Assembly (NCBI GenBank): GCA_014804345.1
Contig: JAAUZZ010000001.1
Location: 97,111 to 146,208 of the forward strand
Source of the DNA: Lachnospiraceae bacterium
GTDB lineage: Bacteria; Bacillota; Clostridia; Lachnospirales; Lachnospiraceae
Reading direction: 5' to 3'
DNA length: 49,098 nucleotides
Under the pieces are notes generated by a model. It worked only from the letters and a program-made list of their open reading frames with translations, had not been told where the DNA came from and made no database searches. The position numbers and the translations under genes were made by a program. Each line of letters begins with the position of its first letter. Within the stretch, counting starts at the first letter, position 1. This document shows positions 28,869-35,218 of the stretch, one piece after another.

Positions 28869-30161
28869 ATGAAACGAGCGATATCAATAATACTTGTTTG
28901 TGCAATGATTTTAGTCGGTTGTACGCAGCAGACAACTGTTTCGGAAACAAATTATACAGAAACAACGAAAACACTGATTGAAACAGCCACTGAATCCGGA
29001 AAAACGGAAGAAGAAACAGATGGCAGTGAAATAATAACATCAAAGTCATTGGCGGAGTTTAAGGAGATTGTTCCTAATTACAATGAATTGTCAGATCCGG
29101 ATCTTCTAAGATACACAGAGGATAACATATATTCCCGGCTTATAGCGGAATTGGACAGTGATGAATATTTTGTTGAGAATGTCAGTGCAGTTTATTGGTC
29201 TAAGGAATATATAGAGGAACTGGAGTATAATTCGAAAAAGAATATATTTTTTGGATATAGTCTTGAAGATTTGGACGAACAGTTTCAAGGCACAAGATAT
29301 GTTTTCTCGTTAGGTGACGGTGGCGATACGATTGTTGAGGCTTTCGAGGAATATGATGATACATATGCAAGAGTAATTAAAAATACTGCGATTGGAACGG
29401 GAGTTATTATTGTATGCGTAACGGTTTCAATGGTTTCGGCAGGGGCAGGAGCTCCGGCGGTGAGCATGGTATTTGCTGCGTCGGCAAAAACCGGAGCAAC
29501 GTTTGCGGTATCTTCCGGAGCATTAAGCGGTATTGCTACAGCTGTTATTACAGGTACTCAGACGAATGATATGAGTCAGGCAGTTAAGGCAGGAGCGCTT
29601 GCGGGAAGTGAAAGTTTTAAATGGGGAGCAATCACAGGCACTATTTACGGTGGCATAACTGAAGGTACAAAGTATTTTAAGGTTATGAACACTTTGAAGG
29701 GGGCAGAGCTGGAAGGTATCACAATGCAACAAGCAGCAGCTATGCAAATGGAATCGGGATTTCCGGTTGACATCATTAAACAGCTTCATAGTATGGATGA
29801 ATATAACATTTACAAGGATTCCGGACTGGTATGCAAAATGGTAGATGGAAAGTTGGCGTTGGTTCGAGATATTGATTTGAATTTTAAATCTGAATTACCG
29901 AATGGTGAAGTGGTTACGAATTTGGAACGTATGGCAAGAGGTTATGCACCACATGATCCAATTACAGATAAAGCGTATCAGCTTCATCATATTGGACAAA
30001 AATCGGATGCTACACTTGCTGTTTTGACCGAAGCGGAGCATACAGGGAAAGGCAACACTACTATACTTCATATGATAGGTAAAGATAGTGAGATTGATCG
30101 ACCGGTGTTCGATACGGTTCGTGAGAAGTTTTGGAAAAGTTTTGCAGAATCGGTTAAGTAA
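28869..30161 (+). CDS. Lipoprotein with C-terminal LHH (HNH/Endo VII-type) nuclease domain, putative polymorphic toxin
   Basis: A 430-residue protein. The lipobox LVGC puts the lipidated Cys at 18. A Thr/Glu-rich linker (20-60) and a helical domain (60-165) follow. Next is a Gly/Ala-rich hydrophobic stretch (about 175-270: GTGVIIVCVTVSMVSAGAGA, FAVSSGALSGIATAVITG) like the pretoxin membrane regions of polymorphic toxins. The C-terminal part has GYAPHDPITDKAYQLHHIGQ and AEHTGKGNTTILH. LHH is at 372-374, the signature of the LHH nuclease family (His-metal finger). Family knowledge: such tips are toxin domains in bacterial conflict. Inference: a surface-tethered nuclease toxin. GGAGG precedes the ATG. 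No intact immunity gene follows. Confidence 0.8.
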   Translation: MKRAISIILVCAMILVGCTQQTTVSETNYTETTKTLIETATESGKTEEETDGSEIITSKSLAEFKEIVPNYNELSDPDLLRYTEDNIYSRLIAELDSDEYFVENVSAVYWSKEYIEELEYNSKKNIFFGYSLEDLDEQFQGTRYVFSLGDGGDTIVEAFEEYDDTYARVIKNTAIGTGVIIVCVTVSMVSAGAGAPAVSMVFAASAKTGATFAVSSGALSGIATAVITGTQTNDMSQAVKAGALAGSESFKWGAITGTIYGGITEGTKYFKVMNTLKGAELEGITMQQAAAMQMESGFPVDIIKQLHSMDEYNIYKDSGLVCKMVDGKLALVRDIDLNFKSELPNGEVVTNLERMARGYAPHDPITDKAYQLHHIGQKSDATLAVLTEAEHTGKGNTTILHMIGKDSEIDRPVFDTVREKFWKSFAESVK

Positions 30162-30388: not shown

Positions 30389-31495
30389 TTACCAGTGTGA
30401 AAACAGAATCCCCGCAAGTGGTGATAAGACAATCATTATCATTGAAAAGGTAAAGGATTCAATGGAAATCAGTGTCGCCCGCTGTTCTGACGGAAACATA
30501 TTTTGAAGAAGCGTGTTTGTTCTCACTTGAAGCGCATCATCACTGAGTGCAGCAATAAATCCGCCGATTGTCATGACGATATACATTCCGGAATGCTCAA
30601 GCAATACACTGAAAAATACAAGCAATGCAGTGATTGCGAAGATCCTTCGATAACGCAACTTTTCCCATTTGAGTATTAATTTTGCCCCAAGTATTCCGCC
30701 CGTTTCCATGAAGAACAAAGCCAAACCAAGCGTTGCTTGCGGCATCCCGTTTTCCGGCAGTTTTGCCTGCAGAAAAAACAGCAGCAAAATATCAATAGCG
30801 CCCACGAATGAATTGCAGAACATTAAAAATATAGCCTTTTTGGCATTTTTCAAAAAAGAAAGGCTTGTGATAAAACATATTACAAGTTCTTTTCTGATAT
30901 GGCGAATCATGCCTTTTTCATTACACGGATCAGAATGGCATATCCGTACTTCGGATAAGGATAGAAGTATCCGTATTTGTATAAGGCCTATTACAATATC
31001 TGCACCATATGCTGCCCTATGTCCGATTAAAAGCGAAAATCCAGCACATAAAGTTGATACGCCGCTGCAAAAACGATGGATAATCATTTGATTGGAACCA
31101 TATTTTTCATAATCATCTTCAAGTGCAACCGTTTTAAGGGAATCATATGCAAGCGCATCCCCTGAACCTGATGAAAAATTATAGCTTACCGCATGGAATG
31201 CAATGGATACACATACCATAAATAAATTGCAGGAAAATATCATAATGATATTTCCAATCATTCGCATAATACTGCTGACAAGCAGCATATTTTTTCGACC
31301 GAATACATCGGCAAGAACGCCTGACGGAATTTCAAACAGTAAGCTTGTTATATGAAAAACAGTCTCTGCAAAACCGATTTCCACAAGACTATAACCTCTT
31401 GCTGCGAGTATGGCCACCCAAGCGCCTGTCAGGGATAAATTACCAAGCGCAGATGATAGATATAATCTTGTTATTTGTTTTTTAATATGAAACAT
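30389..31495 (-). CDS. MFS efflux-type transporter under a leader-peptide attenuator
   Basis: A 368-residue membrane protein with about 10-12 hydrophobic segments. The conserved motif-A-like loop GVLADVFGRKNML follows helix 2, as in drug:H+ antiporters, and SLVEIGFAETVFHITSLLFEIPSG resembles the usual helix 1-2 region. It is slightly short for a 12-helix MFS pump (about 400), with a compact centre. The ATG at 31495 has AAGGAG upstream, but that site is inside an 11-bp stem (31500-31537), and a 39-codon leader frame lies before it. This is the arrangement of inducible resistance genes, so export of a ribosome-targeting antibiotic is a reasonable inference. Which compound cannot be told. Confidence 0.88.
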   Translation of the reverse strand: MFHIKKQITRLYLSSALGNLSLTGAWVAILAARGYSLVEIGFAETVFHITSLLFEIPSGVLADVFGRKNMLLVSSIMRMIGNIIMIFSCNLFMVCVSIAFHAVSYNFSSGSGDALAYDSLKTVALEDDYEKYGSNQMIIHRFCSGVSTLCAGFSLLIGHRAAYGADIVIGLIQIRILLSLSEVRICHSDPCNEKGMIRHIRKELVICFITSLSFLKNAKKAIFLMFCNSFVGAIDILLLFFLQAKLPENGMPQATLGLALFFMETGGILGAKLILKWEKLRYRRIFAITALLVFFSVLLEHSGMYIVMTIGGFIAALSDDALQVRTNTLLQNMFPSEQRATLISIESFTFSMIMIVLSPLAGILFSHW

Positions 31496-31499
31496 AAAA

Positions 31500-31537
31500 A
31501 TCTCCTTAACTTTAAATTTTGAATTCGTTAAGGAGAT
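31500..31537 (-). promoter_or_regulatory. Stem sequestering the ribosome binding site of the MFS pump
   Basis: Read on the minus strand, ATCTCCTTAAC (31537-31527) pairs perfectly with GTTAAGGAGAT (31510-31500) across a 16-base loop. AAGGAG is the pump's ribosome binding site, five bases or so before its ATG at 31495, so the closed stem should block initiation. Confidence 0.8.
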
Positions 31538-31582
31538 AATGTACTCATTCTATAAGATTTGCTGCATTATGAATAGAGGCTG

Positions 31583-31702
31583 TCAAGCATAATACTTACA
31601 TAGCCTTCTTTGACAAATCTTCCTAAAAATGGGCGCACTATCCCCGTAAAGGGGAGAAATATTACCTTTTTTCAGTTGTAGATTTGTCATTTTCCAAAAC
31701 AT
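31583..31702 (-). CDS. 39-residue leader peptide of the MFS pump
   Basis: Minus-strand frame from ATG 31702 to TGA 31585-31583. AAGAGG (31716-31711) is eight bases upstream, a good ribosome binding site. The peptide starts MFWKMTNLQLKKGNISPLYG and ends with a Cys/Arg/Lys-rich part (RKICQRRLCKYYA). Inside the frame, GACAAATCT (31620-31612 on the plus strand) and AGATTTGTC (31680-31688) form a 9-bp stem around CCCC/GGGG. Its 5' position, its own ribosome binding site and the overlapping alternative stems suggest a regulatory leader that senses ribosome stalling. It could also be a functional small protein. Confidence 0.65.
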   Translation of the reverse strand: MFWKMTNLQLKKGNISPLYGDSAPIFRKICQRRLCKYYA

Positions 31703-31733
31703 TAATCTAACCTCTTATTTAATATTTATATCA

Positions 31734-31762
31734 ATTTTAATATATAAGGACATATTTTACAA
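31734..31762 (-). promoter_or_regulatory. Promoter of the leader peptide-MFS pump unit
   Basis: Minus strand TTGTAA (31762-31757), 17 bases, TAAAAT (31739-31734). The transcript would start near 31727, about ten bases before the leader's ribosome binding site. Confidence 0.65.
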
Positions 31763-31837
31763 GAGAAAAAGCAAACTTTCAATTTCAGGGAAAATTGCGC
31801 CTTCTTAAATTTGTACAATGTACTGTCAAGCTTGAAT

Positions 31838-34300: not shown

Positions 34301-35218
34301 CTATAAATCCAAATCCCATTTTTCCTCTAATACAGGAATTCCCCAGTTTTCGTTTTCAACGGTTTCCGTTATCTCGAAACCGGCATTTTTGTATAATATC
34401 CTTGCGGATTCTTGTGCGCTTACTGTCCATAAGAAAATATGGGAATACTTTTTTTGGCGGCAAAAATCCAACGCGGTATTTAATAAATTGGTTCCTGCTC
34501 CTAATCCTCTTAATTCAGGCTCTAAAAAGAAATATCTTAGCTGTGCCGTATGATCATCGTCCATATGTGTGATTGCAATACAGCCGGACGCAATTTCGTC
34601 ACATTCTAAAATAAGGATGCAGTCTTTTTCGGGATTAAATTTTTTAACAAGCGAAAGGACTCCCTGCGTGAGATAATTTTTCCATATTTCTGTTGTAAAA
34701 TGTCTTTCCGATTCGTAAAGCGATAATTGACGGTCTATGATATATGGAATGTCCTGTTCGTGGTAGGGACGGATTTTGATGTCTTTTGTCGCTTTTGTAA
34801 AAAATTTTTTGACAGTCCGCATACTGTGAATCAATGTTTCACAATCCTCAGGATTTAGTTTTGTGATCAAATCTTCAATCTGTTGATTGGAACGATGATC
34901 AAGTTCGTGAAAAACAGACAGCCCCTTATCCGTCATATGTATTTCGATATTGCGGTTATCTGTATCGCAGATATGCCTGCTGATCAATCCGCTTTTCTCA
35001 AATTTATTGATGATTTTGCTCATGTAGCTGCGGTCAATGTCTAAAATGGAGCATAATTGATTTGCCGTGCAGGTATCTGTTTTGCTGATTTCAAATAAAA
35101 TCCTTGCCTCTGTAAGGGAATAGCCGGAATCGATGATGTATTCGTCTAACAATCCCAGAATGTTTGTGTAAAAACGATTAAATCCTCGTATTTCTGTCAC
35201 AATGTCAATTGGGTTCAT
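34301..35218 (-). CDS. MarR-GNAT fusion protein
   Basis: A 305-residue fusion. Residues 1-145 are a MarR winged-helix domain (LTEARILFEISKTDTCTANQ, IDRSYMSKIINKFEKSGLIS, then the wing around DTDNRNIEIHMTDKG). Residues 150-300 are a GNAT domain (IKIRPYHEQDIPYI, YFFLEPELRGLGAGTNLLN with the R-G-x-G-A-G acetyl-CoA loop, ARILYKNAGFEITE). Such bifunctional MarR/GNAT proteins are a known architecture. The start has GAAAGGA upstream. Its promoter overlaps a perfect palindrome, so autorepression is likely. How acetylation and DNA binding are linked is unknown. Confidence 0.93.
   Translation of the reverse strand: MNPIDIVTEIRGFNRFYTNILGLLDEYIIDSGYSLTEARILFEISKTDTCTANQLCSILDIDRSYMSKIINKFEKSGLISRHICDTDNRNIEIHMTDKGLSVFHELDHRSNQQIEDLITKLNPEDCETLIHSMRTVKKFFTKATKDIKIRPYHEQDIPYIIDRQLSLYESERHFTTEIWKNYLTQGVLSLVKKFNPEKDCILILECDEIASGCIAITHMDDDHTAQLRYFFLEPELRGLGAGTNLLNTALDFCRQKKYSHIFLWTVSAQESARILYKNAGFEITETVENENWGIPVLEEKWDLDL

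Follow-up and report, generated by a model that had tools for sequence, protein, structure and literature searches.

A probable leader-peptide attenuator upstream of a family of major facilitator superfamily pumps in Lachnospiraceae and other Clostridia

In the vmlR leader of Bacillus subtilis, an upstream open reading frame (uORF) lies within an anti-antiterminator hairpin, a drug-stalled ribosome permits the antiterminator to form, and attenuation of transcription is combined with that of translation (PMC9226507). The tlrB (yxjB) leader of B. subtilis also involves a leader stall, with terminator and Shine–Dalgarno-sequestering structures that have a common apex (PMC6851288), and the mef(E)/mel attenuator has a leader peptide and a Rho-independent terminator ahead of an efflux gene (PMC4335068). 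In the translation attenuation of ermC and ermB, as described in PMC12121999, RNA segments 1:2 and 3:4 pair in the OFF state and 2:3 in the ON state, and toiL-topAI of Escherichia coli has a stall-sensing uORF and a ribosome-binding site (RBS) occluded when OFF (PMC12121999). Here we analyze a locus upstream of a gene for a major facilitator superfamily (MFS) pump in a 49,098-nt stretch of DNA from a Lachnospiraceae bacterium (GCA_014804345.1, contig JAAUZZ010000001.1, positions 97,111 to 146,208; the whole stretch is called the window). From sequence comparison and modeled folds, we consider it probable that a ribosome-mediated attenuator operates at this locus, with stalling within a leader peptide as its signal.

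The mechanism is of a known kind, and the peptide, RNA and pump family appear to be new. Our comparisons cover parts of PMC12121999, PMC4335068, PMC11109978, PMC8319848, PMC6851288 and PMC9226507, and statements about these systems are limited to those parts. No W..KG peptide was seen for vmlR in the part of its report covered; in contrast to vmlR, one hairpin here seems to be both terminator and RBS blocker, and the target is an MFS pump. The mef(E)/mel attenuator differs in its leader (MTASMRLR), in the sequences of its terminator (R5/R6) and anti-attenuator, and in its location on mobile elements; the window leader lacks MRLR and thus falls outside the mef/msr/erm(D/K) leader class, for which that motif is given in PMC4335068. 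The tlrB leader stalls at an RYR at its C terminus, has no overlapping antiterminator identified in the covered part of PMC6851288, and controls a 23S rRNA methyltransferase. The leader peptides and targets of ermC and ermB are others, and the U-run on the 3:4 stem is a feature of the present locus, whereas in toiL-topAI the uORF itself pairs with the RBS, termination is Rho-dependent and the target is a toxin–antitoxin system. Rfam gave no match in the window at the gathering threshold, and at E ≤ 1 on seven loci only one irrelevant small nucleolar RNA match. Among the literature matches listed, in which subscription journals were little covered, none described a leader of this sort from these organisms, and the main text of PMC11109978, which presents eight uORF candidates, has no mention of MFS or Lachnospir in the part covered; within this scope the switch is apparently undescribed.

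The elements of the locus, all on the minus strand, are as follows (positions in the window).
31754..31782, minus strand: probable promoter, TTGAAA-17-TAAAAT (10/12 consensus match)
31711..31716, minus strand: leader RBS, AAGAGG, 8 nt from the leader start (direct reading)
31583..31702, minus strand: leader open reading frame (ORF), 39 codons, MFWKMTNLQLKKGNISPLYGDSAPIFRKICQRRLCKYYA (direct reading, with signs of peptide-level selection in homologues)
31664..31702, minus strand: conserved leader core, codons 1–13 (M-x-W-K-x-x-N-x-x-L-x-K-G), the presumed sensor and stall part
31680..31688, minus strand: S1 (segment 1), GACAAATCT, 5' arm of the lock helix P1
31633..31645, minus strand: S2, GGGGATAGTGCGC, 13-nt motif, putative 5' arm of the antiterminator
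31612..31620, minus strand: S1' (segment 2), AGATTTGTC, 3' arm of P1
31554..31561, minus strand: segment 3, CAAATCTT, partner of S1' in the predicted ON fold
31527..31541, minus strand: S3, of which 31541–31532 would pair with S2 (ON) and 31537–31527 with S4 (OFF)
31500..31510, minus strand: S4, GTTAAGGAGAT, pump Shine–Dalgarno sequence and 3' arm of the terminator-like hairpin
31496..31500, minus strand: U-tract separating the stem from the pump start
30389..31495, minus strand: MFS pump, 368 aa (Pfam MFS_1, E = 1.2e-14)

The original prediction, made from the letters of this DNA, had described the 39-codon frame with its RBS, a perfect 11-bp stem between ATCTCCTTAAC (31537–31527) and S4 that contains the AAGGAG of the pump, a 9-bp pairing between segments 1 and 2, and an 8-bp pairing between AAGATTTG and segment 3, and all of these are present. 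It had also listed a promoter; the match exists, but it is weak evidence, since matches by chance are common (18 promoter-like sites in the scanned region, slightly above the 12.9 ± 3.3 expected). The release step had been assigned to TTAGGAAGAT (31626–31617), said to match the RBS-blocking arm ATCTCCTTAA over 9 of 10 bases. This match holds only when one G-U pair is counted, and we rejected the pairing as the step that frees the RBS, as its probability was 0.000 in all 14 window folds. The predicted RBS-freeing pairing is instead that of S2 (31645–31633) with CATTATCTCC (31541–31532). S2, absent from the list of the original prediction, is the most conserved element of the locus, and the observed set of elements exceeds chance.

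We scanned genome_contigs (84,980 species) with the S2 pattern GGGGATAGTGCGCYYNTTTT, which consists of S2 and its T-run and includes no leader, pump, S3 or S4, and called a leader wherever a short frame had TGG as its third codon. The scan gave at least 120 loci; about 7 chance matches would be expected in the whole collection (arithmetic estimate), about equal to the number of loci without a leader. Among the matches listed, a leader was present in 113 of 120, the seven leaderless loci (L050, L079, L088, L098, L105, L134 and L135) all lacked the pump, and no S2 locus with the pump lacked the TGG codon. For the window and the matches listed (114 loci), the spacing from leader start to S2 was 57 nt in 97 loci, 58 nt in 11 and 56 nt in 6, a stretch of the same pump lay within 1.7 kb in 111, and the pump start lay within 340 nt of S2 in 109 (108 of 113 without the window). 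The two that have a stretch but no such start are L119 and L121, the latter with N over the pump start. The three loci without a pump stretch were L150, at a contig end, L055, where the pump is lost, and L074, with a remnant only (the same stretch as L010). S2 was found in all three leader frames and is therefore an RNA element; in L006 and L014 the leader stop stands immediately upstream of S2, so that conservation of S2 does not reflect the residues it would encode.

Several orphan modules keep the leader, S2 and the hairpin: the pump is gone in L055/L165 (Butyrivibrio hungatei NK4A153), a remnant is left in L010/L074, and all that remains of the pump in L119 is a tail of 45 residues 1.4 kb on, behind other sequence. 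In L174 a deletion takes out S2 and the leader runs into the hairpin, and in L185 S3:S4 is kept upstream of the pump, with neither leader nor S2 visible. A mobile-element origin of S2 was considered and rejected; matches of the leader model R1 with S2 and a T-run only, such as L176, L178 and L179, have no pump in the stretch examined. L176 and L179 (and L178) contain AAGGGGTAAGTGCGCCCTTTTTTAG without leader or pump, the flanks of L176 and L179 are alike, and genome G620 has five places with only S2 and the T-run, of which three lie some 23 bases inside the start of a contig, a position expected of a repeated element.

When the leader peptide was searched for in 299 genomes of this family, 91 genomes had a match at E ≤ 1, but no more than 11 places, the window's own included, reached E ≤ 2.3e-4 (L002–L012); the weaker matches L014, L016 and L019 have the same layout. 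Fourteen sequences, including the window, align gap-free from upstream of the leader start through S2, with one base different in the S2 of L005 and several in that of the divergent L019. Leaders were thinned at 90% identity, from 127 to 106. Among these 106, G13 was invariant (GGT in 80, GGA in 15 and GGC in 11), as it was in 94/94 leaders from the S2 scan, where the peptide played no part; L10 was found in 100 (with six synonymous codons), K12 in 96, N7 in 94 and K4 in 90, and W3 in all 106, TGG at codon 3 being the selection criterion. The ratio of nonsynonymous to synonymous differences (pN/pS) over codons 2–13 was 0.43 in frame; shifting the frame raised it to 1.02 and 1.05, and codons 5–6 and 14–18 gave 0.81. 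In 21 of the 106 leaders the stop is at codon 19, at S2. These ratios suggest that the leader is translated and under selection at the peptide level, and that selection extends no further than codon 13. The original prediction had put forward the conservation of this frame as a check, and it was borne out. The leader core contains no run of codons for one amino acid. With W3 and G13 ten residues apart, the leader is a candidate new arrest peptide; we take a W ten residues ahead of a P-site G to resemble SecM, a likeness used as a lead only.

The lock helix P1 (S1:S1') had an energy of –7.2 with its own partners and –5.0 with swapped partners (n = 106; 0/10000 permutations, where this and the later permutation controls retain shared ancestry and the zeros are not probabilities), and it is kept with different letters in several lineages (L011, L060, L086, L172 and L188). 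These energies support the role of segments 1 and 2 as a lock, though it is weak in some lineages, and comparison shows P1 in many, not all, lineages.

The S2:S3 duplex was examined in 109 loci, leaving out L119 (pump tail only) and L121 (N at the pump start). Its mean energy was –19.3 kcal/mol, compared with –10.0 in dinucleotide shuffles of the downstream part; none of 100 shuffles matched it in 80/109 loci, and at most five reached it in 106/109. In the pair table, which leaves out L170, L173, L199 and L205 (where the register of S2:S3 was ambiguous or still to be placed), pairing is seen in 1260 of 1417 cells (89%), as against 38–65% when the arms are slid by 1–3, and the poorest pairs are 11 (69/109) and 13 (59/109). 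Two-sided changes occur at pairs 1, 4, 5, 6, 8, 10 and 11; pair 6, for instance, goes from U-A to A-U to C-G, and pair 8 from G-U/G-C to C-G. These changes stem from loci outside the S2-pattern scan, namely L005, L175, L198/L201 and, from another family, L210–L214. The clearest covariation in the leader class of the window (class 1) is that of L175, where GGGAGTACTATGC pairs with GCATAGACTCCC with one bulge (–19.8 with its own S3, –9.8 with a class-1 S3). Own and swapped S2:S3 pairs differed by little (–19.17 vs –18.91, 0/10000 permutations) because S2 is fixed by the scan. S2 and S3 thus co-vary, which answers the call of the original prediction for compensatory changes in homologues.

For S3:S4, own arms gave –15.3 and swapped arms –12.5 (n = 90, 0/10000 permutations), and the hairpin averaged –15.7 kcal/mol (109 loci, a few with long inserted loops). 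A run of at least five T in the 10 nt upstream of the pump start was present in 106/109 loci and in 4/172 control ORFs, which have AGGAG at similar spacing and come from the window and L032–L151. The hairpin is thus a stable stem with a U-tract directly after it, as in intrinsic terminators, although it was not among the results of a terminator scan restricted to loops of 3–8. Because S4 leads into the U-tract, S3:S4 would block the start site and is very likely an intrinsic terminator. Control is probably exerted on transcription as well as on translation, since the RBS hairpin very probably doubles as a terminator. S2:S3 and S3:S4, the latter hiding the pump start region, are predicted to be mutually exclusive helices. 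Long insertions lie between S3 and S4 in L085 and L101, where the terminator loop of L085 contains a GCTCACAATTGA-like unit in several near-copies, and between S2 and S3 in L036. An intrinsic terminator at the T-run just after S2 was rejected, as no conserved stem was found by eye directly upstream of it.

We then consider how these helices would be switched. The window RNA folded without a ribosome gave probabilities of 0.99 for P1, 0.97 for S3:S4 and 0 for S2:S3; with codon 13 in the P site and the RNA ending before S4, the minimum free energy (MFE) structure was the full 10-bp S2:S3 helix together with the segment 2:3 helix, and S2:S3 fell to 0 at codon 18 and the later positions tried. We surveyed 87 loci by MFE only, with an assumed ribosome footprint of –16 to +15, leaving out L036, L085 and L101 (long insertions), L119, and loci with <25 nt upstream or an unassigned S3. 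At least seven S2:S3 pairs formed before S4 in 74–84% of loci for the positions sampled between codons 1 and 12, in 89% at codon 13, 93% at 14, 84% at 15, 66% at 16, 1% at 17 and 0% from 18. The original prediction had placed the stall over segment 1 (codons 5–8); the peptide and the geometry favor about codon 13, and the folds do give ON for most positions up to 15. Folding would place the ON stall at or before codon ~15, and peptide conservation points to 13.

The proposed mechanism follows the ermC-like logic suggested originally (1:2 and 3:4 OFF, 2:3 ON), which is supported here with a translated leader and a pump as target; of its parts, comparison shows the peptide, S2, S3:S4, S2:S3 and the U-run, together with P1 in many, not all, lineages. 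In the OFF state without a ribosome, P1 would form and tie up S2 within it, and a ribosome reading to codon 17 and slightly past would cover S2. Either way S3 would pair with S4, transcription would end at the U-run, and the pump Shine–Dalgarno sequence would be hidden. In the ON state, a ribosome held early, its P site most likely at codon 13 (the K-G glycine, which is invariant), would cover S1 and prevent P1, its leading edge ~5 nt short of S2; S2 would then pair with S3 ahead of S4 synthesis, the polymerase would continue, and the pump would be translated. We infer that a ribosome-targeting antibiotic is the most likely inducer and that exporting it is the most likely function of the pump.

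Several observations weigh against this mechanism. In the full-length window RNA with codon 13 occupied, S3:S4 had a probability of 0.67 and S2:S3 of 0.43, and in full-length folds of the 87 loci at least seven S2:S3 pairs formed in just 52%; as S3:S4 is the more stable in such folds, the switch must be kinetic. In 28% of these loci S2:S3 (at least seven pairs) forms before S4 even without a ribosome, and the fold profile is a plateau over codons 1–15 with a modest best at 13–14 under the assumed footprint. Many Butyrivibrio-type leaders (..NIHLMKG..) hardly form P1. The universality of W3 is partly by construction, though the S2 loci with the pump all have TGG. S2 was fixed by the scan, hence few independent variants stand behind the class-1 S2 covariation; in L032, L143 and L067, respectively, 40, 34 and 18 of 100 shuffles matched the S2:S3 energy, and the own pairing of L170/L173 (–7.4) was no better than a foreign one (–7.3).

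The plateau bears on a reading that overlaps with ours and differs from it in specificity, the peptide adding little: the same switch may be a general sensor of translation stress, as proposed for toiL, in which any slowing before codon ~15 exposes S2. ON is indeed predicted for stalls from codon 1 to ~15 in most of the 87 loci, and toiL responds to at least five classes of antibiotics (PMC12121999, in the part covered). However, purifying selection and the invariant G13 exceed what position-independent stalling needs, and with a stall at codon 1 the window fold still had P1 at 0.71 and S2:S3 at 0.01; we regard this reading as rather unlikely, albeit one to be taken seriously. More doubtful still is a reading in which the frame codes for a small protein with a function of its own, with RNA pairings that are incidental. 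Purifying selection on codons 2–13 would fit, but the leaders that end at codon 19, the almost free codons 14–18, the occurrence of S2 in all three frames and the co-variation of S2 and S3 make this very improbable.

In a further reading, the arrest peptide senses a compound other than an antibiotic, such as a metabolite or host compound, which the pump exports. The fixed W3 and G13 ten residues apart could suit a ligand-sensing arrest peptide, of which TnaC is an example, and the pump has no sequence relative in PDB and no close plasmid relative among the matches listed. Classic amino-acid attenuation does not fit a core that lacks a run of one amino acid's codons, and the leader-controlled efflux gene mef(E) responds to macrolides (PMC4335068, in the part covered), so this reading seems unlikely to us, more so than a stress sensor. 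An attenuator that senses stalling on the leader peptide remains our preferred reading.

As for its distribution, pump homologues at E ≤ 1e-30 were present in 20/299 genomes of the family. By our own reading of the regions upstream of these 20 pumps, 15 had a leader of the W..[KN]G type together with S2 or a recognizable variant of it (variants in G028 and G114). The other five were G184, with a leader and an unclear S2, G082 and G107, with a second class of leader, G164, with a looser second-class form, and G060, in which no leader was found in the 400 nt searched upstream of the pump and S3:S4 is kept. Searches with R1 over more than 40 genomes used strict filters, and their counts are lower bounds. 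In 392 genomes of the order, 23 strong matches besides the window were found (E ≤ 2.4e-6), 22 of them with the pump; at E ≤ 0.01 matches occurred in 107/392, mostly weak, and six weak loci that were checked (L176–L181) had no pump. In 341 genomes of the class, 8 matched at E ≤ 1e-5, six of them from another family and all six with the pump, and in 348 genomes of the phylum the window itself was the sole match. True loci are mostly labeled Lachnospiraceae, Oscillospiraceae, Ruminococcaceae or their genera, some just 'Clostridiales', 'Clostridia' or 'Bacillota'. Carriers, by their record titles, include Butyrivibrio, Pseudobutyrivibrio, Roseburia, Ruminococcus flavefaciens and Faecalibacterium, among others. 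Two unannotated human faecal records labeled 'Bacteriophage sp.' (UNVERIFIED), L215 (MT838580.1) and L216 (MT837962.1), contain the module and the pump start, and are probably bacterial scaffolds.

The second leader class, MNGLGY[TI]P[VI]CSSSSxSKT.., was found in L201, L203 and L205, with a looser form (..VVSSSSEKTH..) in L204; the evidence consists of these four loci, with the pairing computed without L204. These leaders precede pumps just 27–34% identical to that of the window. Their motif S2' begins 72–73 nt from the leader start and pairs with S3' in L198/L203 (GGGATTACTGCG with CGCAGTAATTCC, –19.7 kcal/mol), in L201 (–14.5) and in L205 (also –14.5). With T18, the last shared residue, in the P site, the ribosome edge would lie 6 nt before S2', compared with 5 nt in class 1. 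Between S3 and the pump, L203, L201 and L205 by eye also contain a distinct terminator-like hairpin with a T-run. Tentatively, and with somewhat less than even confidence, one RNA switch chassis may carry interchangeable sensor peptides (W3...G13 and SSSSxSKT); if so, different peptides would give different drug specificities, and the Ser run in the class-2 leaders would be in keeping with stalling of the phenicol or oxazolidinone type.

The best NCBIfam match of the pump is TIGR00900 (41.5 bits, cut-off 319.6), which places it in the same superfamily and not among the members; TIGR00900 is an H+ antiporter family that we take to be Mef-like MFS. Plasmid searches gave 58 records for the pump, all <60% identity and the best 20 of the 58 ≤26.7%, and no match for the leader; the DNA of the region had no match in plasmids or phages at 1e-5, and the S2 pattern none in viral_contigs. 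The window DNA is single-copy in its 2.1-Mb assembly of 40 contigs (76% complete). Convergent with the pump gene, positions 28869–30161 (plus strand) encode a lipoprotein-like protein that may be a secreted toxin-type nuclease, with an LHH nuclease domain (Pfam PF14411, E = 3.7e-20) at its C terminus, and 34301–35218 (minus strand) a MarR regulator–GNAT acetyltransferase fusion, with two more GNAT genes close by.

If the proposed reading is true, gut and rumen commensals share a large family of inducible controls on pump genes that is as yet undescribed. As some of the carriers are named strains, not metagenome-assembled genomes, sensing and export by these pumps become directly testable, and the candidate arrest peptide is open to ribosome studies like those on ErmBL or SecM. 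The finding also suggests a route by which commensals may raise pump levels under antibiotic treatment without an acquired resistance gene.
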